From: a virus
DNA length: 21,091 bases
IMG/VR virus record: IMGVR_UViG_3300031707_000225
Location: 1-21,091 of that record
Reading direction: 5' to 3' (one strand)
The notes beneath the pieces were generated by a model that worked only from the letters and a program-made list of their open reading frames with translations, made no database searches and was not told the DNA's origin. The translations under genes and the position numbers were made by a program. Shown here piece by piece: positions 1-13,331 of the stretch; position 1 is the stretch's first letter; each line of letters begins with the position of its first letter.

Positions 1-912
1 GCAGCAACAGTATTTGCTCAAGTAGGAACAGTTAATGCTGATCTAGGGTTTGTATGTACTGCTGATGCAGGTGGTACAATAAACGTTACAGCAATTACCT
101 TCATTCAGTTCTCAACCTTTGCTGCGGGTATTACTCAATTAACTGGTGAGGCTACAGCAGGTCCTGGAAGTGGTAGTCAAGCAGTTACATTAACAAACTC
201 TGCCGTTATTGCAAAAACTTTGACAGGTTATTCAGCTAGTGCAGATACAGTTACAAGTTCAGATTCAATTCTGACAGCTATAGAACATATAGATGGTAAT
301 GACGCATTAAAGTTGCCTTTAGCAGGTGGTACTCTTACAGGTGCTCTAACAATTAATCCAGTAAGTAATCAATTAGTTCTTGGTGGGGTAAGTGTAGGTT
401 ATAAAGTAACTATTTCTTCAACAGCTCCCGGAGCAAATAGAGTATTAACTATTCCAGCACCTACAGGAAATAGAAACTTCTTAATCTCTGGAGAAGCTGC
501 AATCGTAACAGGAGATATTAATGCAAGTGCAGCTATTACTCTAGCTAAGTTAGCTAGTATTGGTGCAGCTAAGATTATAGTAGGAAATGTTTCTAACGTT
601 GCAGCCGCAGTTGATATGTCTGGAGATGCTACTATTGATAATGCAGGCGTTATTACTCTAAGTGCAACCGCACTTGGAACAACACACTTCGTTACTAGGT
701 CACTTCCCGCAACTGGAGATATTGATGGAAGTAACAGAGTATTTACAACCACTGTTGCTCCAATTAGTGGAACAGAACACGTGTACTTAAATGGTGTGCT
801 TCAAAATGCAGGTTCAGGTAAAGACTATCAAATAGCTACGAATACAATTACTTTCGAAACAGGTAATGCTCCAAAGACAGGTAGTGTATTATTGATCTCT
901 TATCACAAATAA
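1..912 (+). CDS. Tail fibre-like repeat protein, 5' end outside window
   Basis: The frame is open from base 1, so this is the last 303 residues of a longer protein. The first in-frame start-like codon, TTG at 220, lies in continuous coding sequence and is not the start. The visible part is beta-rich, low in charge and rich in A, T, G, S and V, as in trimeric phage fibres. It holds a module with VTSSDSILTAIEHIDGN and GGTLTG (about bases 250-350), a module with TIPAPTGNRNF and IVTGDINASA (about 450-660), and a C-terminal unit with VYLNGVLQNAGSGKDY ending in ILLISYHK-like strands (VLLISYHK). The last unit resembles 'LNGVLQ' end domains common in phage fibres. The first two modules recur in the 929-aa protein at 3799. 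The role in host attachment is inferred from composition and motifs; confidence is high for a structural fibre-type protein and low for its exact place on the virion. Confidence 0.8.
   Translation, partial: AATVFAQVGTVNADLGFVCTADAGGTINVTAITFIQFSTFAAGITQLTGEATAGPGSGSQAVTLTNSAVIAKTLTGYSASADTVTSSDSILTAIEHIDGNDALKLPLAGGTLTGALTINPVSNQLVLGGVSVGYKVTISSTAPGANRVLTIPAPTGNRNFLISGEAAIVTGDINASAAITLAKLASIGAAKIIVGNVSNVAAAVDMSGDATIDNAGVITLSATALGTTHFVTRSLPATGDIDGSNRVFTTTVAPISGTEHVYLNGVLQNAGSGKDYQIATNTITFETGNAPKTGSVLLISYHK
451..483 (+). repeat. 33-bp exact repeat, copy A (fibre module)
   Basis: This 33-bp stretch, encoding the IPAPTGNRNFL part of a fibre module, is identical to 4078-4110 in the 929-aa fibre gene. 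The surrounding 80 bases are also close to identical, including the stretch encoding VTGDINASA. The conservation at DNA level suggests recent duplication or recombination between fibre genes. Confidence 0.85.
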
Positions 913-962
913 CCGTAAAATCGGTGGCTAGGTTACTTATAGCATTATAATAGAGTTTAAAC

Positions 963-1016
963 AGGGATGAAATAACTGGTAGTAGGAACTTTGTTTCTTC
1001 TACCAGTTACTTCCCT
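963..1016 (+). terminator. Strong intergenic hairpin, possible terminator or RNA-processing structure
   Basis: A 16-nt arm at 974-989 pairs with 993-1008 around a 3-nt loop, with one mismatch and one G:T wobble (core AACTGGTAG / CTACCAGTT). An outer AGGGA (963-967) pairs with TCCCT (1012-1016). The structure lies just behind the first fibre gene. The bases after it (AGATAAGATT) are not a U tract, so a classic intrinsic terminator is not certain. Partial attenuation or transcript stabilisation before the next gene is equally possible. Confidence 0.5.
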
Positions 1017-1040
1017 AGATAAGATTAGAGGAGAAATAAC

Positions 1041-1328
1041 ATGAAAGAAAAAGACATGAAGTCTGAAGTAAAACAAGAAGTTAAACCTGAAGTAAAACCC
1101 ATTGTACAAGAAACAAATGATTTTAGAGAGTTGTATGGTAAATTAAGAAATGAAATTAGTAAGGCTAAAGAAACATATAGAACTATGTCGACACAAACAG
1201 ACGAAGCAATAAATGTACGTGTACGAGAATTAGAAATATTAAAAATTAGAAAGGTGAAATTAGAAGGTGCTATTGAAGCTACTGAAGAGCTTTTAAAGAC
1301 AGCCTTACCTTCTAATAATAAACAATAA
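1041..1328 (+). CDS. Small charged coiled-coil protein, function unknown
   Basis: This 95-residue protein has a clear ribosome binding site (GAGGAG at about 1028-1033) in front of the ATG. The first 25 residues are a K/E/V-rich, P-punctuated tail (KSEVKQEVKPEVKP) that is probably disordered. Residues about 30-90 are predicted helical with heptad-like spacing (RVRELEILKIRKVKLEGAIEATEELL). There is no signal peptide and no membrane segment. It follows a fibre gene directly, and a second small coiled-coil gene at 7101 follows the other fibre genes, so a role as fibre assembly chaperone or trimerisation/attachment helper is possible. That is inference from position only; I do not recognise the family. 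Confidence 0.75.
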   Translation: MKEKDMKSEVKQEVKPEVKPIVQETNDFRELYGKLRNEISKAKETYRTMSTQTDEAINVRVRELEILKIRKVKLEGAIEATEELLKTALPSNNKQ

Positions 1329-1330
1329 TA

Positions 1331-1582
1331 GTGATATACAAAACGGGACAAACAGTAAATTGTGAACTAAAATTAAAAATTTTAAGAGCGTTTGCCCTTG
1401 ATGGAAACGTTTACTATATTTTTGGTGTTTTGAAAAAAGATACACCACTTAGATATATAGTTGATCATCTTTATGGTGTATTAAATGTAGAAGGTAGTCA
1501 TGACAGTATTCCATTGGATGCATATGCAAAAGCTGAACAGTTAATTCAAAATGAAAATTTGTTAAACAAGATAGATGAATAA
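1331..1582 (+). CDS. Small hypothetical protein, GTG start
   Basis: This 83-residue frame begins with GTG two bases after the previous stop codon. No Shine-Dalgarno sequence is visible upstream and there is no in-frame ATG, so initiation probably depends on coupling to translation of the 95-aa gene. The first half is beta-like (VYYIFGVL), followed by a DAYAKAEQLIQNENLL helix. It contains no cysteine motif apart from one Cys near the N-terminus and no recognisable domain. It sits between a coiled-coil gene and the 729-aa fibre gene. Function is not assignable; the compact packing and lack of stop codons support a real gene. Confidence 0.6.
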   Translation: MIYKTGQTVNCELKLKILRAFALDGNVYYIFGVLKKDTPLRYIVDHLYGVLNVEGSHDSIPLDAYAKAEQLIQNENLLNKIDE

Positions 1583-1595
1583 ATAGGATTTAATT

Positions 1596-3785
1596 ATGGG
1601 AAAAACTCAAATTGGCGGCGGACAAATTAAAGATGGTGACATCACATCCGATGATATTGGAGACGCCGCTGTAAGAGGAACTACAGCTAACACTGCGGGA
1701 ACACAGCAAGAGATTGCTCAAGGAACTATTTCAACTCCTGATTTAAGAAATGATGCTGTTGACGCTACAAAACTTTTAGAAACCGATTCTTATGTAGTGG
1801 GTGCATTAACTATAAATAGTACTACAAAAGCTTTCTTACCTCCCAGGATGACAACTACTCAAAGAGATGATATTGCTACTCCTAGTGCAGGAATGTTGAT
1901 TTATAATAATAGTGATAGTGCATTAAATATTTACACAAACGCTTGGCTTTCTTTCTCTACAGGAGGAGCAAATACAACTTTATCCAACTTAGCTGATACC
2001 GTTGCAATAAACAAAAACTTAAACAATTTTAGTGCGGGAACAATCACAGCTAGTTTAACGGGTGCTGCAAGCCTTAACCTTCTTTTAACGGGTGGAACTT
2101 TAACAGGAGACTTAACTCTAGCAAATAATAAAACTTTAATCTTACAAGAAGCTACAGGTAATGGTACTGATAGTGTAACTATCAAGACTCCAGCAGCATT
2201 AGCTGCAAGTTATACACTTACACTTCCTGTAGATGATGGAACAAGTACACAAGTGCTTACTACAGATGGATCAGGTGTACTTAGTTGGACTACTCCAGCT
2301 GGAACAGTTAATACAGGAACACAATATCAATTAGCTTTTTATGCTACATCTACTAATGCTGTTAGTGGAAATTCTAGTATAACAACGAATGCTTCAAATC
2401 AACTATTAGTTCCCGTTGGCACAGCAACTGCTCCATCTATAACTTTCGCTGGAGATCTTAGTACAGGTATTTATCATATTGGAGCAAATAATTTAGGTAT
2501 ATCAACTAATGGAGTATTAAGGATTCCAGATAGTGTAACTACATCTACCCCAAGTATTGCATATGTAACAGATGCTACTAATGGTATATATTTTGATTCC
2601 TTGGGAACAGTTTTTGTTATTGGTGGAGCTTTTCAATTAAGAACAACGGCAGCCCGTATAACAACTAATGTGCCGCTTAGACTTGAGAATGGTACAGCTG
2701 CCGCTCCCGCAGTTACTTTTGTGGGATCCGCTTGGGATTCAGATTCAGGTTTATATTGGGTTGGAGAAAATGATTTAGGAATATCAACAAATGGTACACT
2801 AAGATTAGACGTTAGTACAACTGCTATTACTTCTACATTACCAATAGTTCTTCCAATTGGAGCAATTGGAACACCATCTTTAACGTTTGCTGGTGATACA
2901 GATACAGGTATTTATAGTGGGGGATCAAACATACTTGGACTTGTGGTAAATGGTAAACATGTTTTTGCATCAAATACAACTGAGGTTTACCTTTACTCAA
3001 ATGGAGTAGCGAAATTTTACTTAGATGCTACTAGTATAACAGCAGTACTACCATTTTATGCAGCAGATGGAACAGCAGCTGCACCATCTTTAACGTTTGC
3101 TAGTGATACTAATACGGGAATTTATCGATTAGCGGCTGATGAACTCGGTATTGTATGTAACGGTACTTTGGCCGGTGATTTTTTTGCTAGTGGTGTTAAT
3201 CTTTATGCAAGTGGAGTAGCAAAGTTTTCTTGTGATGCGAATGGATGTAATGTCGCTATGACCGATGGGACAGCAGCGGCCCCGTTAATAAGGTTTAGTG
3301 CAGACACAGACACAGGTATTTATAGAGTTGGTACAGATGATTTAGGTTTATCAACAAATGGTACACTAAGATTAGACGTTAGTACAACTGCTATTACTTC
3401 TACATTACCAATAGTTCTTCCAAATGGAACAGCAACTGCACCATCTTTAACGTTTGCTAGTGATACTAATACAGGTATTTATAGAGGTGGAGCTGATCAG
3501 ATAAACTTCTCAGCAGGTGGTGGAAATTACGCTTGGATAAATACCACGGCTTTTACTTTTAACACAGATATTCTACCAAATGATGATAACGCTCAAAATT
3601 GCGGATCTGCTGGTAAACGATGGAAACTTGTTCGTGGAGTAACAATTACTCCAGGAGATTTAAAATTTGAAAACGATTGGGTTATGACTGAAGGAGAAAA
3701 AATTGGTTGTCCAGAAGAAGGAATTGTAGTTGTATCTCCAACAGGTAAAAAATATAAAATAAATTTAACAGAGATTGTAGAATAA
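1596..3785 (+). CDS. Tail fibre / adhesion protein with seven GIY-type repeats (729 aa)
   Basis: The start is the ATG behind AGGAT. Residues 1-80 form an acidic, Q/G-rich N-terminal region (QIKDGDITSDDIGDAAV) of the kind that begins many phage fibres. About residues 83-120 carry PPRMTTTQRDDI and GMLIYNN, a motif frequent in fibre proteins. A GGTLTG module follows (about 165), then a TVNTGTQYQLAFY module (about 237). Residues about 272-665 hold seven units of roughly 50-65 residues built on A-P-S-L-T-F-x-x-D-T-x-T-G-I-Y followed by LGISTNGTLRLD. The C-terminal 60 residues (WVMTEGEKIGCPEEG) differ and may be the tip. The protein lacks any hydrophobic signal. The likely role is a trimeric beta-structured fibre or decoration of the tail; receptor binding is inferred, not shown. 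Two units are almost identical at DNA level. Confidence 0.82.
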   Translation: MGKTQIGGGQIKDGDITSDDIGDAAVRGTTANTAGTQQEIAQGTISTPDLRNDAVDATKLLETDSYVVGALTINSTTKAFLPPRMTTTQRDDIATPSAGMLIYNNSDSALNIYTNAWLSFSTGGANTTLSNLADTVAINKNLNNFSAGTITASLTGAASLNLLLTGGTLTGDLTLANNKTLILQEATGNGTDSVTIKTPAALAASYTLTLPVDDGTSTQVLTTDGSGVLSWTTPAGTVNTGTQYQLAFYATSTNAVSGNSSITTNASNQLLVPVGTATAPSITFAGDLSTGIYHIGANNLGISTNGVLRIPDSVTTSTPSIAYVTDATNGIYFDSLGTVFVIGGAFQLRTTAARITTNVPLRLENGTAAAPAVTFVGSAWDSDSGLYWVGENDLGISTNGTLRLDVSTTAITSTLPIVLPIGAIGTPSLTFAGDTDTGIYSGGSNILGLVVNGKHVFASNTTEVYLYSNGVAKFYLDATSITAVLPFYAADGTAAAPSLTFASDTNTGIYRLAADELGIVCNGTLAGDFFASGVNLYASGVAKFSCDANGCNVAMTDGTAAAPLIRFSADTDTGIYRVGTDDLGLSTNGTLRLDVSTTAITSTLPIVLPNGTATAPSLTFASDTNTGIYRGGADQINFSAGGGNYAWINTTAFTFNTDILPNDDNAQNCGSAGKRWKLVRGVTITPGDLKFENDWVMTEGEKIGCPEEGIVVVSPTGKKYKINLTEIVE
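2366..2413 (+). repeat. 48-bp exact repeat shared by two fibre genes, copy A
   Basis: This stretch encodes GNSSITTNASNQLLVP and is identical over 48 bp to 4968-5015 in the 929-aa gene. The protein modules around both copies are homologous (GTQYQLA upstream, APS-TF-G-D downstream), so this is a shared fibre module whose DNA has hardly diverged at its centre. Confidence 0.88.
2782..2856 (+). repeat. 75-bp exact direct repeat within the 729-aa fibre gene, copy A
   Basis: The 75 bases encoding STNGTLRLDVSTTAITSTLP and flanking residues recur without change at 3349-3423, 567 bp downstream and in the same frame. Recombination between the copies would remove or add 189 residues (three repeat units) without a frameshift. 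Confidence 0.9.
3079..3115 (+). repeat. 37-bp exact direct repeat, copy A
   Basis: The 37 bases encoding APSLTFASDTNT are identical to 3436-3472, 357 bp downstream in frame. They mark the conserved start of the fibre repeat unit. Confidence 0.85.
3349..3423 (+). repeat. 75-bp exact direct repeat, copy B
   Basis: This is the second copy of the 75-bp block at 2782-2856. The first base outside the block differs on each side (A/T at 2781/3348 and T/A at 2857/3424). Confidence 0.9.
3436..3472 (+). repeat. 37-bp exact direct repeat, copy B
   Basis: This is the second copy of 3079-3115 and opens the seventh repeat unit of the 729-aa fibre. Confidence 0.85.
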
Positions 3786-3798
3786 GAGAGGAATTTCA

Positions 3799-6588
3799 AT
3801 GGGAACACTTTGGAATGTGGATGGAACAACGGGACAAATTAAAATAGAAGATGGAACAGTATCTGCTCTTGCATTAACCTTTATATCAGATCCAAACACC
3901 GGTATTTATCATGTTGGAACAGATGATTTAGCTTTAGCAACCAATGGAACACAAGCATTAGAAATAAATAGTACTCAACAAATTGTTGTTCCAAAAACAT
4001 CTAATCAAATTATATTGGGAACTACAAATACTGTAACACTATCATTTTCTGCTCCTGTAACTTCTAGAACTTTAACAATTCCAGCACCTACAGGAAATAG
4101 AAACTTCTTACTTTCTGGAGAAGCTCAAATAGTAACAGGAGATATTAATGCAAGTGCAAATATTGTTCTGAGTCAATTAGCTAGTATTACTGATGGTCAT
4201 ATTATTGTAGGTGCCGTTACTACAGGTACTCCTACTAGTGTTACTATGTCTAGTGAAGCTTCAATTATTAATACTGGAGCCGTTACATTATCTAATGCTG
4301 CTGTCATTGGAAAAGTTTTAACAGGATTTACTTCAGGTTCAGGTTCAGTAACGTCTTCAGATTCAATTTTAGCAGCTATTCAACACTTAGATGGTAACGT
4401 TGGTACAAAATTAAATCTTAGTGGTGGTACTTTAACTGGAAGTGTTTTACCCTCGAGCTCTTCATGTAATTTAGGATCTGGAACGCAGGAATGGGGATTA
4501 GTTTATAGTGGTGGTTACATTGTAGGAAACCCTACTACTCCTGGTTACTTACAGTTATGGAGCGGAGGTCTTAAATACATAGACATATGGGCAGTAACAC
4601 CTAGTGTTAATAGCAATTATACAATAAGAGATGTTGGAGCAAATGCTGATTTTGTAATGACAGAAGGTACCCAAACACTCAACGGTAGTAAAACATTTAG
4701 TTCTGATCTTACTATTTTTGGGAATAAAGCCTTAATTATAAATGATGGAGAAGGAACTCCAAAAACTGTAACTATTAAAACTCCAGCAACTTTAACGGCA
4801 AGTTATAATATGATTCTTCCTGTAAATCATGGGGCTGCCGGAGAATATTTAAAAGATGCTGCCGGGGATGGTATTTTAAGTTGGGACTCTCCAACCGGTT
4901 CAGGAACAGTTAATTCGGGAACACAATATCAATTAGCATATTATACGACTACTGGGACAACTGTAGATGGAAATTCTAGTATAACAACGAATGCTTCAAA
5001 TCAACTATTAGTTCCTGCTGGATTGGTAACGGCACCCTCTTTGACGTTTACGGGTGACCCAAATACTGGTATTTTTTCTTCTGGAGTCGACCAAATTGGT
5101 TTTTCGTGTGGAGGAGTAATAAAAGCAGTTCTGTCATCTACTGATTTAGATGTGAAAGGAAGATTTTATGCAGCAGACGGAACAGTGGCTCTTCCAGCGT
5201 ATTCTTTTAATAGTGACCCAGATACAGGTATTTATAGAAGTGGAGCAAATGAATTAACTCTTGTAACAGGCGGAGGAAGTGCAACTGGAAATACTGTTTT
5301 TACATTGTATGGCTCTGGTGGAACTGAAGTATACCAAGATGCTAATACGAGTACTTTTCTTAGGGTTTATAATGGAAATGTTGGAAGTAGAACGGCTACA
5401 ACTTCTGTTATGTCTCTTACAAACAGATCAACATCGATGGATGGTAGTATTGCTCTTGTTAAATACGCTCTTGGTCATTCAGGAACATATTCAAATGGAT
5501 CACCCACAAGTAATTCAGGAGCTATTACAATATCTAGTGATCAAATTGCTCGTTGGGCATGGGAAATGGGAACTAGTGGTAACGAAGGTATTTACTATAA
5601 TTCACAAACATATGGTGGAGTAGCTAGATTAACTAATACTGGTAGATGGTTAGTTTCTGATGGAACAGCAACAGATCCTTCATTGTCTTTCTTAAACGAT
5701 CTTGGTACAGGTATGTATTCCGGGGGAGTTACTAATCTTCGTTTCGCAACTGTTGGAGTTGGTAGGTGGCAGATTAATTCAACGGGTGACTTTGGTATTG
5801 TTACGGGTAATGCTGGAGTAATTAGTACGTCAGATGGTACAGCTGCAGGACCATCATATAGTTTTTTAAGTGATACAGATACAGGTATTTATAAAGCAAA
5901 TACAAATGTACTTGGGTTTTCTGCAGGAAGTACAGGTGCACAAATGTTTTTGACTAATACAACGTTGCAACTTAATTCTCCGTTGGTTGCAATACGTAAT
6001 GTTGTAGGTTCAGTTACCGTTCCATCATATAGTTTTGATGTTTCTCCGACGGATAACGGAACAGGAATTTATTGGGTTAGTGCAGGTAAAATAGGAATTA
6101 CGTTAGCAGGAACAAAATATGTAGATTTATCTACAACAGCAGTAACAATTTCTGCTCCTTTAATTGCTAAAGGAACAATAACAAATGATTCTGCTGCTGC
6201 CAGCTATATTGGTGAGTATATTGAGTCAGTGGTTGGACCTGTTAATCCTACTGCTTCTGAAACTTGGTATAATATGGCATCCATATCCTTAACAGCAGGA
6301 GATTGGGATGTTTCTCTTATGGAAGATTTTTCAAGTGGTGCAACTAATACAGCGTATTATGCTGGAATTTCTGCTGATGCAACTCCCAGTAGTTTTTCGG
6401 ATAGCGTTATAGGATCGAATTACGCTTACAGTGGTGTTGCATCTAGTCTTCCAATGACTATGAGTATTCCAGTTTTCAGAGTATCTCTTGCTGCTGCTGA
6501 TGTTTACTATGCCAAATCAATGATCACTTATACAACACTAGGTGGAGCAAACAGCAGAGGAAGATTGTCAGCAAGGAGAGTAAGATAA
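3799..6588 (+). CDS. Large modular tail fibre / receptor-binding candidate (929 aa)
   Basis: The start is the ATG behind AGAGAGGA, 13 bases after the 729-aa gene. Modules in order: a TFISDPNTGIYHVG unit (about residue 20-65); TIPAPTGNRNF with VTGDINASA (about 93-165); VTSSDSILAAIQHLDGN with GGTLTG (about 184-220); a region with FVMTEGTQTLNGSKTF (about 285-300) of the kind seen in fibres; GTQYQLAYY and SSITTNASN (about 372-410); then five further TGIY-type units between about 412 and 790. A unique 130-residue stretch with Trp (about 490-620) interrupts them. The last ~135 residues form a distinct end domain (LTAGDWDVS, then a VYYAKSMITY strand, ending RGRLSARRVR) that looks like the beta-sandwich end domain of other phage adhesins, so it is the best receptor-binding candidate here. 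The assignment is from motifs and layout, not from a database. Confidence 0.82.
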   Translation: MGTLWNVDGTTGQIKIEDGTVSALALTFISDPNTGIYHVGTDDLALATNGTQALEINSTQQIVVPKTSNQIILGTTNTVTLSFSAPVTSRTLTIPAPTGNRNFLLSGEAQIVTGDINASANIVLSQLASITDGHIIVGAVTTGTPTSVTMSSEASIINTGAVTLSNAAVIGKVLTGFTSGSGSVTSSDSILAAIQHLDGNVGTKLNLSGGTLTGSVLPSSSSCNLGSGTQEWGLVYSGGYIVGNPTTPGYLQLWSGGLKYIDIWAVTPSVNSNYTIRDVGANADFVMTEGTQTLNGSKTFSSDLTIFGNKALIINDGEGTPKTVTIKTPATLTASYNMILPVNHGAAGEYLKDAAGDGILSWDSPTGSGTVNSGTQYQLAYYTTTGTTVDGNSSITTNASNQLLVPAGLVTAPSLTFTGDPNTGIFSSGVDQIGFSCGGVIKAVLSSTDLDVKGRFYAADGTVALPAYSFNSDPDTGIYRSGANELTLVTGGGSATGNTVFTLYGSGGTEVYQDANTSTFLRVYNGNVGSRTATTSVMSLTNRSTSMDGSIALVKYALGHSGTYSNGSPTSNSGAITISSDQIARWAWEMGTSGNEGIYYNSQTYGGVARLTNTGRWLVSDGTATDPSLSFLNDLGTGMYSGGVTNLRFATVGVGRWQINSTGDFGIVTGNAGVISTSDGTAAGPSYSFLSDTDTGIYKANTNVLGFSAGSTGAQMFLTNTTLQLNSPLVAIRNVVGSVTVPSYSFDVSPTDNGTGIYWVSAGKIGITLAGTKYVDLSTTAVTISAPLIAKGTITNDSAAASYIGEYIESVVGPVNPTASETWYNMASISLTAGDWDVSLMEDFSSGATNTAYYAGISADATPSSFSDSVIGSNYAYSGVASSLPMTMSIPVFRVSLAAADVYYAKSMITYTTLGGANSRGRLSARRVR
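4078..4110 (+). repeat. 33-bp exact repeat, copy B (fibre module)
   Basis: Identical to 451-483 in the truncated upstream fibre gene; it encodes the IPAPTGNRNFL core of the shared module. Confidence 0.85.
4968..5015 (+). repeat. 48-bp exact repeat shared by two fibre genes, copy B
   Basis: Identical to 2366-2413 in the 729-aa gene; it encodes GNSSITTNASNQLLVP. Confidence 0.88.
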
Positions 6589-7946: not shown

Positions 7947-8723
7947 ATGAAATCAGGAATTTACAAATATCAAAATATTATCGATGGTAAACTATACATT
8001 GGTTCTGCTGTAGATTTTATTGATCGTTGGAACGTACATAAATATGCGTTAAAAAATCAAAAACACCATTCTTCACGTCTTCAAAACGCAGTTAATAAAT
8101 ATGGAATAGAAAACTTTGAATTTAAGATATTGGAAGAAGTGGAACCCATAAAGAAAAAATTACTTGAAAGAGAACAATATTATTTAGATTTTTACAAAAG
8201 TTATGAAGAAGATAAAGGGTATAATATAGCACGAGCGACTAGAAGTCCAATGTTCGGTCGTAATCATACAAAAGAGACTAGAAATCATTTAAGTAAAGTA
8301 CGAAAAGGTGAAATACATTCTTTAGAACATAATTTAAAAGTAAGTAGAGCTTTAAAAGGTAAGATGCCAACGCAAACACATATGGAAAAACTTTGGACGG
8401 GAACTCGAGGACGTAAACAATCAATAAGTGAGATTGAAAAACGAAGAAGTTCTTTGACAGGACTAAAGAGATCTAAAGAAGCTATTAAAAATTTATCTAA
8501 CGCACATTTAGGAAATAAATACGCTTTAGGTGCGAAAAGATCTCAAAACTATCGAGAAATAACGCGTCAAAATTCTTTAGCCCAATGGAAACGTTATAGA
8601 GAAGAGTTTGGAAAATATATACTTTGTGCGTGCGACTGCAACGAAAGTTTTTACGTACGCCCTTCAGAAAATAAAAAGAAGTTTAAAGATATAAATCATT
8701 ATTATAAATTTATTAAGGATTAA
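7947..8723 (+). CDS. Free-standing GIY-YIG homing endonuclease with NUMOD3-like repeats
   Basis: Residues 1-95 form a GIY-YIG nuclease domain very like that of I-TevI: GIY at 4-6, YIG at 17-19, R27 in DRW, E76 in EREQYYLD and N93 in GYNI match the known catalytic positions (Y, Y, R, E, N). Residues about 100-190 carry repeated R-x-H/K-T/S-x-E-T/A-x-x-x-(L/I)-S motifs with Lys/Arg (GRNHTKETRNHLSKVRKG and later copies), typical of NUMOD3 DNA-binding segments. The C-terminus has CACDC, which may be the rest of a zinc finger lacking its second cysteine pair. It would cut a specific phage site to spread its own gene. It fits exactly between neck and tail-terminator genes with 2-nt junctions and has no visible ribosome binding site of its own, so it probably relies on coupling. 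Confidence 0.9.
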   Translation: MKSGIYKYQNIIDGKLYIGSAVDFIDRWNVHKYALKNQKHHSSRLQNAVNKYGIENFEFKILEEVEPIKKKLLEREQYYLDFYKSYEEDKGYNIARATRSPMFGRNHTKETRNHLSKVRKGEIHSLEHNLKVSRALKGKMPTQTHMEKLWTGTRGRKQSISEIEKRRSSLTGLKRSKEAIKNLSNAHLGNKYALGAKRSQNYREITRQNSLAQWKRYREEFGKYILCACDCNESFYVRPSENKKKFKDINHYYKFIKD

Positions 8724-9681: not shown

Positions 9682-11496
9682 ATGTCTATTGCAAACGTAT
9701 ATGTAGAACCGGGAGTCTACTCCCAGTTTAAACCATCAGGTAACTTACCAGTAATTCCGGGGGGAGTTAGAGTTGCTGCATTGGTAGGTGCCGGACGTAC
9801 AACGAACATAGTTACACAAGAACAAGTAACAAAGGGCACCGACACATTAGCACACACCGCGGTGAGTCTGGGAGCTCAGATAGTAGATGAAGATTTTAAT
9901 ACTTATGATAGTGCAACAGATTATTCAGCCACACCTGGAGCAACTATTAGTTGGTTAACGGGTGCAGTTTCCTTAACGGGAACAATTGCGCAACCTTATG
10001 CAGGTTTAGTAGGAAAAACTTTTATAGTAACTATTGGAAGTAATTCACCACAAACATATTTATTCAAGAATAGTATTGCTTTGACAATTACGGGTGTTCA
10101 AGGTGATGGACATACATTAGATGTTACTAGTAACGCGGGTGTAGTAGTAGGTGATACTATTACTGCAGGAGCTGCGTCATCCGTAGTCACAAGTGTAGAT
10201 CCTGGAACTATAACGTTAGTGAGTACCTTTGGTTTTGCTCCAGGAGCAGCTGTAGATACAGCAGATTTTGTTGTTCCCACAGCAGCTACCGCATTAGAAG
10301 TTGTTACCGCACTTAACAAACTTACAGGTATTACGTGTACGGTTGATTCCCTTAAAGTTAAAGTTGCTACGACAGCAACTAGTAATTCGTCATTGTTAAT
10401 AGGAACAGGTACTACAAATAGTATTCTTGGATTTACAGATGGTTCTTATCAAGCAACTCCCCGGCAACCAGCTGCACTCAAAAAATACTTTGTAAATTAT
10501 GAGTACGCGAAATCTTCCTCCGATTACAGCGTACGGTTCTTCTTTAATATGTCAGACATAGTTGCAGAACATGGAGACGTTAGCACAACTGATACTCTTT
10601 CACTAGGAGCAGAAATATTATTTCAACATGGTGCCAGTGCAGTAGCTTTAGTACAAGTTAATCCAGCTGATGGAGCATTAATTCAACAGTTTAGGAAAGC
10701 ACTTGACAAACTTTTACCCGTTGACGGAATTAATATAGTTGTTCCATTAAATCCAGATTCAGGTTTGTATTCTTATCTTTCAAATCATGTGGATCAAGCA
10801 AGTTCTTTAACAGAAAGAAAAGAAAGAACTGGTATTGTAGGATTAAGTGGGGCACCTTCAATATCAACTATTCAAGGATTTGCAACTGGATTAGCTAACA
10901 AGAGAATGGTATTAGTTTATCCGCCTTCTTGTACACGATATGTAGGTGCTAATACAACAGTTTCTACTTTAGACGGATCTTTTCTAGCTTGCGCTTGCGC
11001 TGGTATCAGAACTAGTACAGCTTATGATGTTGCTGATCCGTTAACAAGAAAGGAATTAATTGGTTTTGAAAATATTCCGGATACTTTGTTAAGAGCGGAA
11101 AAGAATCAATTAGCAAGTAGTGGAGTATTAGTAATCGAAAACGTAGGTGGTATTTTTAGAGTTAGACATCAAAAAACAACTGATACGTCAACCGTACCAA
11201 ATAGTGAATATTCAGTAGTTGAAATAGTTGACTACACAGCGGTTAACATGAGAAAAATGTTAGAAACTATTTACATTGGACAAAAAATACTAGTGGATAC
11301 GCCATCACAAGTCAAAAGCACCGTAAATGCATTACTTCAAAATCTTGTATCTCGTGAGATTATTGTAGCATTTACAGATATACAGGCTTCAATTAATAGT
11401 ATTGATCCTACTGAAATTGATGTTCAATTTAGTATCAGTCCTACGTACCCGTTAAATTATATTCTCGTAACGTTTTCATTATCAACAAATCAATAA
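9682..11496 (+). CDS. Contractile tail sheath protein
   Basis: The start has an optimal AGGAGG. At 604 residues it is in the usual size range for phage sheaths. The N-terminus YVEPGVYSQFK is the classic sheath opening. Residues about 95-265 form a Gly/Thr/Val-rich inserted beta domain, probably facing outward. From about 265 the core resumes (ADGALIQQFRKALDKLL, GINIVVPLNPDSGLYSYL, then KRMVLVYPPS near residue 410). The C-terminal part (TAVNMRKMLETIYIGQKILVD, ending DVQFSISPTYPLNYILVTFSL) matches the sheath C-terminal subdomain that links neighbouring subunits by strand exchange. It would form the contractile outer layer around the tube encoded next. Confidence is high. Confidence 0.92.
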   Translation: MSIANVYVEPGVYSQFKPSGNLPVIPGGVRVAALVGAGRTTNIVTQEQVTKGTDTLAHTAVSLGAQIVDEDFNTYDSATDYSATPGATISWLTGAVSLTGTIAQPYAGLVGKTFIVTIGSNSPQTYLFKNSIALTITGVQGDGHTLDVTSNAGVVVGDTITAGAASSVVTSVDPGTITLVSTFGFAPGAAVDTADFVVPTAATALEVVTALNKLTGITCTVDSLKVKVATTATSNSSLLIGTGTTNSILGFTDGSYQATPRQPAALKKYFVNYEYAKSSSDYSVRFFFNMSDIVAEHGDVSTTDTLSLGAEILFQHGASAVALVQVNPADGALIQQFRKALDKLLPVDGINIVVPLNPDSGLYSYLSNHVDQASSLTERKERTGIVGLSGAPSISTIQGFATGLANKRMVLVYPPSCTRYVGANTTVSTLDGSFLACACAGIRTSTAYDVADPLTRKELIGFENIPDTLLRAEKNQLASSGVLVIENVGGIFRVRHQKTTDTSTVPNSEYSVVEIVDYTAVNMRKMLETIYIGQKILVDTPSQVKSTVNALLQNLVSREIIVAFTDIQASINSIDPTEIDVQFSISPTYPLNYILVTFSLSTNQ

Positions 11497-11526: not shown

Positions 11527-12042
11527 ATGGCAAAATTAAGTAAAACACAGGTACGCATGGCTACCAGCGTTTCTATTATGGCGATCAAAGGTGAATTAAC
11601 TTTTGATGATCTAAACAATTTAGATGCTGTAAGAGCATTAGCTAATTCAACTGTAAAAATTGGAGCTATTCAATCGTTTAGTGAAGCTTCTCCAAGAGGA
11701 ACTACACCACGATATGAATTAGATGCTGATACTGCAGGTGATATGGTAGAAAGAGTACCAGGTCTTGTAGATCGTACTTTGAGAATTAATAGGGCTGTTC
11801 TTTATTCAGCTGATATGTTACAAGCTTTTGGTTTTAATGATATCATTGATATTATTGATCAAAATATTGCATTTTGCGTAGAGAAAGTGGAAAGAGCTCC
11901 GGAAGGATCTAATATTCCAACCAAAACAACTATTTATGTAGGTTGTTGGTTCCATGATCTACCAAAGACTTATGATATTGGAGCTGATTTAAAAGTGCTC
12001 CAAGATGTGGAAATAGGGTATACCAAAAAATTCCAAATTTAA
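11527..12042 (+). CDS. Tail tube protein
   Basis: The 171-residue protein has a perfect AGGAGG in front of the ATG and follows the sheath gene by 30 bases. The size fits tail tube proteins of contractile phages. It opens with a basic strand region (LSKTQVRMATSVSIMAI), holds VKIGAIQSFSEASPRGTTPRY and DMVERVPGLVDRTLRINRAV, and ends in a VGCWFHDLPKTYDI / VLQDVEIGYTKK strand pair. The R-x-x-(L/I)-D...E-x-V-P-G pattern and the final strand ladder are typical of the tube beta-barrel whose hexamers stack into the inner tail tube. The position directly after the sheath and upstream of the chaperone/tape measure genes strongly supports the call. Confidence 0.88.
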   Translation: MAKLSKTQVRMATSVSIMAIKGELTFDDLNNLDAVRALANSTVKIGAIQSFSEASPRGTTPRYELDADTAGDMVERVPGLVDRTLRINRAVLYSADMLQAFGFNDIIDIIDQNIAFCVEKVERAPEGSNIPTKTTIYVGCWFHDLPKTYDIGADLKVLQDVEIGYTKKFQI

Positions 12043-12086: not shown

Positions 12087-12623
12087 ATGGACCTTAAGTC
12101 GGGTGTTTATTCTATTGTTAATAGATTAAACAAAAAAATTTACATTGGGTCAACTGTAAATTTTATCTATAGAAAATGGATACATTTTAATGATCCAAAA
12201 ATAAGTTCACCACATCTTCAAAATGCAATTAAAAAATATGGAATAGAAAATTTCGAATTTACTATCCTTGAAGAAATTGAACCTATTAAAGAGAAATTAT
12301 TAGAAAGAGAGCAATATTATTTAGATCTATATAAGAGTTATGAAGAAGATAAAGGTTATAATATTTGTCATATTGCTGGTAGTAGATTAGGGTCTGTACA
12401 GTCAGAAGAAACTAGAAAAAAGATTTCAATAGGTAGATTAGGTAAAACTAAAGGTATTCCAAAACTCCCACGTACAAAAGAACATACAGAAAATCATAGA
12501 CGGGCTCTTTTAGGTAAGAAATTGGCTCCTAGAACCGAAATACATAAACAACATATTAAAGAATCTTGGATTTTAAGACGTAAAAAATATGGAACAAATG
12601 GCAGAAAGAAAAGGGGTGACTAG
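12087..12623 (+). CDS. Free-standing GIY-YIG homing endonuclease, second copy (short)
   Basis: AAGGAG at 12075-12080 precedes the ATG. The nuclease domain spans residues 1-95 with GVY at 6-8 (the usual I replaced by V), YIG at 19-21, R29, E75 in EREQYYLD and N92 in GYNI, so all catalytic positions are kept. It is clearly related to the endonuclease at 7947: NFEF...ILEE.EPI and LLEREQYYLD.YKSYEEDKGYNI match almost residue by residue. After about residue 100 a shorter basic tail has two NUMOD3-like stretches (QSEETRKKISIGRLGK and RTKEHTENHRRALLGKK). It lacks the CACDC end of the first copy. It lies between tube and chaperone genes, and its last codons contain the AAGGGG site used by the next gene. 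It acts as a site-specific DNase for self-propagation. Confidence 0.9.
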   Translation: MDLKSGVYSIVNRLNKKIYIGSTVNFIYRKWIHFNDPKISSPHLQNAIKKYGIENFEFTILEEIEPIKEKLLEREQYYLDLYKSYEEDKGYNICHIAGSRLGSVQSEETRKKISIGRLGKTKGIPKLPRTKEHTENHRRALLGKKLAPRTEIHKQHIKESWILRRKKYGTNGRKKRGD

Positions 12624-12624
12624 A

Positions 12625-12966
12625 ATGACAGACTTACGTAGTTTAACTCAATTAGGACGTGTAGAAAAAGAAATTGAAATTGGAAGTTTTAAAGTAAAAC
12701 TCCATACATTAACCGTAGCAGATCAACAAAAAGCTTTGTTAAGTATCTCAGAAGAAATTAAAGATGATACAGCAAGACTTTTTCAAATGCAAAAAGCTAT
12801 TTTAGTTTATGCTACCGATAGTATAAATGGTGAAGTAGTAGAAAAAGATAAATTACACGAATTATACAACGAGTTACAACCTGTTGTTTTATCTAATCTC
12901 TTTAGTGGTTACTTAGAATTAGTAGATGAACAAAGTAAAATACTAGACGAATTAAAAAAAAAATAA
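12625..12966 (+). CDS. Tail assembly chaperone, short product (gpG-like)
   Basis: I chose ATG at 12625 because AAGGGGTGA lies just upstream; an ATG at 12589 would add 12 residues that lie inside the endonuclease gene. The 113-residue product is acidic/basic mixed with a strand-rich start (VEKEIEIGSFKVKLHTLTV) and helices later (KDKLHELYNELQPVVLSNLF). It ends LDELKKK on a run of ten A and a TAA. Position directly before the tape measure gene, size and the frameshift signal match the upstream product of the tail chaperone pair, known from lambda gpG/gpGT and used by most long-tailed phages to coat the tape measure during tube assembly. The chaperone itself is absent from mature virions in known systems. 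Confidence 0.82.
   Translation: MTDLRSLTQLGRVEKEIEIGSFKVKLHTLTVADQQKALLSISEEIKDDTARLFQMQKAILVYATDSINGEVVEKDKLHELYNELQPVVLSNLFSGYLELVDEQSKILDELKKK
12954..12963 (+). other. Slippery A10 tract for programmed -1 frameshift
   Basis: The ten A bases are read in frame as TTA AAA AAA AAA TAA, so the zero-frame stop follows the slip site at once. Several A-AAA-AAA heptamers are available for tandem -1 slippage. The -1 frame stays open from here to 13331. No clear downstream stem-loop is seen in the next 60 bases. A homopolymer sequencing error is the alternative explanation. Confidence 0.78.
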
Positions 12967-13331
12967 CAGACCTACCTTTTAGAGATTTATGGATTGTTTC
13001 AAAAGCACTTCATACGTCTCCCCTCGATGAAAAAATAACTGCTCTCACACAGCCTCAAATGACGTGGATTTTAGCTAATCATTTTAAAGATGAAGAAGTT
13101 GAATGGAAAAAATTACAACTTTTATGTAGATTTATTAATCCAGAAGCCGCCAGACAAATTTTCGACAAAGAAACAATTGATCCAATTATAGAAATGACTG
13201 AGGACGAGTTTCTACAAGAAATTAATGCTCACACAACTGAAAAAATAGATAATAAAACTTTACAAGATGCTTTTAAAGGTAATATAACAACTGATCAAGA
13301 CTTGGATGTAATTGTACCTGTAGAGGAATAA
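12963..13331 (+). CDS. Tail assembly chaperone, -1 frameshift extension (gpT-like part)
   Basis: This is the downstream half of a 235-residue fusion running 12625-13331, made when ribosomes slip back one base on the A tract. From the slip the frame reads ITDLPFRDLWIVSKALHTSP and onward without a stop, reaching the first ATG only at 13059. That ATG has no ribosome binding site (CACACAGCCTCAA upstream), so independent translation from it is unlikely. The extension includes PQMTWILANHFKDEEVEW, a motif type I associate with tail chaperone extensions, then a Glu/Asp-rich end. By analogy with gpGT, the extension would bind the tube protein while the shared N-terminal part binds the tape measure. 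The stop lies 3 bases before the tape measure ATG. Confidence 0.78.
   Translation: MTDLPFRDLWIVSKALHTSPLDEKITALTQPQMTWILANHFKDEEVEWKKLQLLCRFINPEAARQIFDKETIDPIIEMTEDEFLQEINAHTTEKIDNKTLQDAFKGNITTDQDLDVIVPVEE

Follow-up and report, generated by a model that had tools for sequence, protein, structure and literature searches.

A conserved A9/A10 tract in place of a slippery heptamer and hairpin at the -1 junction of a tail assembly chaperone pair in distant relatives of Bacillus phage G

Two overlapping reading frames lying before the tape measure gene of a contractile-tailed phage, a distant relative of Bacillus phage G, are well supported as a tail assembly chaperone pair with a conserved -1 transition, on the combined evidence of homology, synteny, predicted fold and 17 related loci. 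The window, i.e., the whole stretch of DNA that was analysed, is the complete 21-kb IMG/VR virus record IMGVR_UViG_3300031707_000225 (21,091 nt, 34% GC), and the features discussed below are collected in Table 1. The most probable reading of the two frames is a programmed -1 chaperone fusion driven by an A tract, to which a probability of about 0.9 is assigned. The -1 shift of tail chaperones is known as such; what is new is a conserved site of nine or ten A's (A9/A10) that replaces the heptamer and hairpin.

Table 1. Tail genes and signals around the chaperone junction in the window.
Feature	Position	Strand	Basis
Tail sheath protein	9682..11496	+	phrog_2839, E 1.7e-43; PF17482 above cut-off; best phage match phage G gp178
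Probable tail tube protein	11527..12042	+	Follows the sheath gene; weak match to phrog_985 (virion structural), E 0.0053; synteny
GIY-YIG homing-endonuclease gene, a bystander between tube and chaperone	12087..12623	+	PF01541, E 6e-10
AAGGGG, Shine-Dalgarno-like	12611..12616	+	Sequence; 8 nt upstream of the start codon at 12625
Tail assembly chaperone, short 0-frame product, 113 aa	12625..12966	+	ATG at 12625, TAA at 12964-12966
A10 slippery tract, site of the 0 to -1 shift	12954..12963	+	Sequence; A9/A10 at the homologous place in 17 relatives
-1 frame extension, gpGT-like, 122 codons and stop	12963..13331	+	phrog_1316 match; alignment with phage G gp182
Weak predicted stem-loop, probably not a stimulator	12982..13020	+	18 nt after the tract; z -1.65; not conserved
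Tape measure protein gene, 640 aa	13335..15257	+	PF10145 PhageMin_Tail, E 2.9e-4, below the Pfam gathering score; synteny with phage G

The 0-frame gene ends with ...GAC GAA TTA AAA AAA AAA TAA and an A run of exactly ten, just as the preliminary description of this DNA had read it. The -1 frame is open from 12939, after an in-frame stop at 12936-12938, to the stop that ends at 13331, and the frames for a fusion of 113 + 122 = 235 aa directly before the tape measure gene are thereby confirmed. Neither upstream of the tract nor for 32 codons after it does the -1 frame contain an ATG, GTG or TTG; its first start codon is the ATG at 13059, which had already been judged unsuitable and indeed lacks a ribosome-binding site and lies downstream of the best-conserved motif, PFRDLW. 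Two overlapping frames, the second of them startless, are thus found upstream of a tape measure gene and downstream of tube and sheath genes, and the earlier likening to the lambda gpG/gpGT fusion is borne out by frames, gene order and homology alike. The A10 is the sole run of at least eight A's within the window; with 0.6 runs of at least ten A's expected per window under a dinucleotide model at 34% GC, such a run is not astronomically rare. It had also been proposed that a true length of 9 or 11 A's would create one unbroken frame, which is correct for 11, and would equally be so for 8, but fails for 9, where translation would enter a third frame and stop soon after the tract. An exact-flank DNA scan found no copies with different tract lengths.

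When compared with the PHROG families, the short product gave a weak match to the tail assembly chaperone family phrog_2792 (E 0.0069) and the extension matched phrog_1316 (E = 2.5e-6). The fusion and phage G gp182 could be aligned through the junction (E = 7e-14), where DELKK/K in the window is matched by NELKK in phage G and the shift falls at equivalent residues; together with the phrog_1316 homology, this alignment argues that the -1 frame is more than a chance opening. An AlphaFold model of the 113-aa product, built on a 15-row alignment (pLDDT 87), found its closest PDB fold in 2ob9, the tail assembly chaperone of HK97 (prob 1.00, TM 0.57/0.60, E 0.018), and its best viral match in phage G gp181 (TM 0.88), so that the short product is related in homology and fold to known tail assembly chaperones. 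The extension was modelled poorly in its second half (pTM 0.45) and its fold matches were weak, with phage G gp182 ranking second. The tail chaperone reading of the preliminary description is now backed by the gp181/gp182 homology, the synteny, the HK97-like predicted fold and the 17 relatives.

The gp181/gp182 pair of phage G (NC_023719.1, 110944-112046) resembles that of the window in the homology of both frames (E 7e-14), in a -1 shift at the same aligned residue, and in the sheath-tube-chaperone-tape measure order common to both. It differs in its slip site, an A_AAA_AAC preceded at a distance of 12 nt by AAGGA and followed by a hairpin of five pairs, whereas the window has A10 without these elements, and in its C extension, which is about 130 aa longer. 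The heptamer A_AAA_AAC occupies the homologous position in phage G and in loci L019 and L013, and the hairpin, CGAC-loop-GUCG just downstream of it in phage G, is also present in L019. A published account describes the two proteins as tail chaperones with the kind of frameshift known from lambda, and mass spectrometry of phage G proteins did not detect them (PMC8570332).

A further relationship concerns the family matched by the extension. phrog_1316 and many RefSeq entries are labelled 'RNA polymerase beta subunit', and members such as gp27 of Listeria phage P100 lie between the tail assembly chaperone and large tail genes. From the position and homology of its members, the name is very probably wrong, and the family would very probably represent the frameshifted extension of the tail assembly chaperone. 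In the Herelleviridae pair gp26/gp27 of P100, the C extension (phrog_1316) is related to that of the window and directly follows the tail assembly chaperone gene, but the second frame lies at +1 relative to the first and has been given the 'RNA polymerase beta subunit' label in databases. This second frame is already open before the annotated start of gp27 (NC_007610.1 19970-20557), which makes gp26 and gp27 the probable halves of a single frameshifted pair.

The gene order of the window runs from the sheath through the probable tube, the GIY-YIG endonuclease and the two chaperone frames to the tape measure. The tail cluster contains two GIY-YIG homing-endonuclease genes, at 7947-8723 and 12087-12623, which are 47% identical over 177 aa; the second directly precedes the chaperone gene. 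In the relative L026, the stretch matching this endonuclease gene contains no ORF of at least 80 aa, and GIY-YIG-like genes also occur near the sheath gene of L034. Some relatives have very long sheath proteins (L018, 2846-8056; L020, 2738-8080; L011, 4391-8089), which take up 1232-1780 codons, compared with 604 for the sheath of the window, and carry large insertions ahead of their conserved C-terminal half. In L011 (9933-11126), as in L017, a transposase-like gene, of the TnpB/OrfB type by eye, follows the tube-like genes at the place expected for the chaperone. Positions 220-6588 of the window encode big repetitive proteins with recurring motifs of the 'DTGIYR' type, which resemble tail-fibre or appendage proteins.

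Seventeen further distinct IMG/VR loci were collected by alignment-based scans, several of them via sheath queries blind to the slip site. They were reached only by alignments pairing the window with phage G and, later, L021; single-protein scans of viral contigs with the fusion and with the sheath, and scans of genome contigs, found no relatives. The -1 relation falls on an uninterrupted A run in 18 of 18 loci, the window included, although these are related and several are near-copies, so that they do not amount to 18 independent draws. The run is A10 in three, namely the window, L026 and L022 (with its near-copy L023), and A9 in the remaining fifteen. Runs of 8 or 11 A's never occur among the 17 relatives, which come from other assemblies, and no run is shorter than nine. 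The comparison of the tract in related phages, suggested in the preliminary description as a check, therefore returned A9/A10 in all 17, always with the -1 relation; more generally, a slippery sequence (A9/A10 or A_AAA_AAC) with a 0 to -1 change lies in the overlap of every relative examined. A tree of the fusion proteins has one fully supported branch that sets phage G, L019 and L013, with their A_AAA_AAC, apart from the A9/A10 loci.

The constancy of the run stands out from its surroundings. The flanking codons vary (CTT, CTC, TTA or AGT before; GTG, GTA, GTT, CTG, CTT or a stop after), and in L049, L050 and L055 the codon register is different (TTA/CTA AAA AAA AAG) with the run still exactly nine. 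In the first 12 loci, the tract uses AAA for all 36 of its Lys codons; elsewhere in these loci AAG accounts for 16-65% of Lys codons, and both codons occur at other conserved Lys positions of these proteins. Across 158 kb of coding sequence outside the tract, no run of at least nine A's or nine T's was found, against 6.4 and 5.5 expected, respectively, when codons were randomised under each locus's own usage, none of 200 randomisations being as low. Long homopolymers are thus avoided elsewhere and kept at the slip site, an avoidance measured on the phages themselves and not on their hosts.

Stimulatory elements were sought near the tract. In the A9/A10 clade no conserved hairpin was found: predicted stems lie at different places, a consensus fold over 12 relatives comes to -0.18 kcal/mol and there are no compensatory pairs, on which grounds a stimulatory hairpin was rejected for this clade. 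A Shine-Dalgarno-like stimulator was likewise rejected for lack of a conserved element, and an Rfam search gave no match. The earlier view of a plain A run without a hairpin holds in that no stem is conserved, but the site is not merely a simpler one, being instead the conserved state of a clade. As neither a Shine-Dalgarno-like element nor a stem is conserved there, we infer that the homopolymer must do most of the work.

Under the mechanism proposed here, standard decoding would produce the 113-aa short chaperone, ending at the TAA directly after the A10, and in a fraction of passes a -1 realignment on the tract would lead into 122 more codons and yield the 235-aa fusion. This realignment would be driven by the homopolymer itself, either through ribosomes slipping on A_AAA_AAA or through RNA polymerase adding one A to give an A11 mRNA, and both routes would end in the identical protein, ...LKKK-ITDLPF.... 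By analogy with lambda, the shared N domain may coat the tape measure protein and the C extension may recruit tail tube subunits, and neither chaperone product would be present in the virion. We infer the production of the fusion, its ratio, route and role from what is read directly in the DNA, i.e., the frames, their homology, synteny and fold, and the conservation of tract and -1 relation. The fusion could be made by the ribosome, by the polymerase or by both, as only the need for -1 joining can be read from the sequence; both kinds of slippage probably contribute, and we think that the length of nine to ten A's is probably kept for efficient, hairpin-independent slippage.

It is tentatively suggested, at somewhat short of even odds, that the chaperone ratio in this clade is set mainly by RNA polymerase slippage on A9/A10, in which case a homologous site would have switched its mechanism, as is known for dnaX between E. 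coli and Thermus. Slippage thresholds vary among bacteria. Phage G itself has a classical ribosomal site, and from the A_AAA_AAC heptamer in phage G, L019 and L013 and the hairpin in phage G and L019, the ancestral mode was probably ribosomal. A conserved A9 together with conserved overlapping frames has been put forward as a comparative criterion for functional transcriptional slippage (PMC1088944), and conserved overlapping frames with a run of at least nine A's are found in 18 of 18 loci; the avoidance of A or T runs of at least nine elsewhere in the phage sequences is a further sign that such runs are slippery in the host. Nine A's or T's suffice for efficient RNA polymerase slippage in vivo (reviewed in PMC5009743), and in E. 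coli reporter cassettes A7, A9 and A11 shift at 10, 40 and 63%, respectively (PMC3711429). If the A10 behaved like these cassettes, an efficiency near 40-60% would be expected in E. coli. The step from a conserved A9 to RNA polymerase slippage was nevertheless held to be suggestive only, because in the commoner register three Lys codons and the heptamer A_AAA_AAA already give nine A's.

Transcriptional slippage as the only route, with the polymerase inserting one A (or four, or losing two) and the A11 mRNA being translated normally, appears possible but doubtful. It would fit the presence of at least nine A's in every locus, retained at nine when the codon register changes, the agreement of this length and of the overlapping frames with the published figure and criterion (PMC5009743; PMC1088944), the shunning of long A and T runs elsewhere, and a tract without the Shine-Dalgarno-like element and conserved hairpin that both accompany the A_AAA_AAC of phage G. 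There is also precedent in Citrobacter rodentium tssM, Shigella mxiE/spa13 and IS elements, which, like the window, combine A9-A11 shortly before the 0-frame stop with conserved overlapping frames and lack ribosomal stimulators; these are, however, not tail chaperones, and polymerase slippage there was shown by mRNA analysis. In tssM, an A11 shortly before a premature stop gives rise to extra A's in the mRNA at 20-25% (PMC4256274). Yet A_AAA_AAA and A_AAA_AAG are ribosomal slip sites in their own right, and the A_AAA_AAG of L049, L050 and L055, which among such sites shifts most readily in E. coli (PMC5009743), fits a ribosomal route. The chaperone shifts of the lambda type investigated to date are translational.

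Slightly less probable is ribosomal -1 slippage alone, on an A_AAA_AAA with weak stimulators around it, as happens in many phages. The classical heptamer found at this place in phage G, L019 and L013 speaks for it, as does the 10% shift of A7 cassettes by themselves in E. coli (PMC3711429), but a heptamer needs just seven matching positions and every locus has at least nine A's, in a clade devoid of both the hairpin and the Shine-Dalgarno-like element. Far less probable is the separate translation of a second gene, from the ATG at 13059 or by coupled re-initiation, although such pairs are habitually annotated in this way, as for P100 gp26/gp27. Against it stand the missing ribosome-binding site, the position of PFRDLW, the most conserved part, upstream of that ATG, and the lack of an ATG, GTG or TTG before the conserved domain of the C frame in 12 of 12 loci; independent initiation of the second frame was rejected on the last of these grounds, and homologues with separately initiated genes, which the preliminary description had named as counter-evidence, were not encountered in these loci. 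Least probable of all is a sequencing or assembly error concealing one unbroken gene with 11 (or 8) A's, since, error-prone as homopolymers are and although the window is a public-collection contig and not an isolate, the 17 relatives from other assemblies have 9 or 10 A's and always the -1 relation, and the phage G group, an isolate genome included, has this -1 overlap too but no long A run.

The programmed -1 fusion on the A tract places this phage beside lambda gpG/gpGT, HK97 and mycobacteriophage cluster C, in which a short chaperone and its -1 fusion are likewise encoded directly before the tape measure gene. The lambda slip site is of the GGGAAAG type, whereas the window has A10, and the lambda-type -1 fusion is a low-abundance product. 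The ratio of the G to the GT product in lambda is 30:1 (PMC5009743), and the yields of the A7, A9 and A11 cassettes in E. coli (PMC3711429) are far above it.

Tail-chaperone frameshifting is among the most widespread recoding events and is generally treated as ribosomal. No prior report of polymerase slippage at a tail-chaperone gene was found in the literature searched, in which a polymerase-set chaperone ratio, if true, would be the first tail-chaperone case. The comparison also exposes a probably misnamed protein family, phrog_1316, and provides a simple annotation rule for joining such chaperone genes. A clade with 9-10 A's instead of heptamer and hairpin offers a natural test of whether RNA polymerase can set the same protein ratio and, with 40-63% for A9-A11 in E. 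coli against the 30:1 of lambda, of the upper limit of the fusion fraction.
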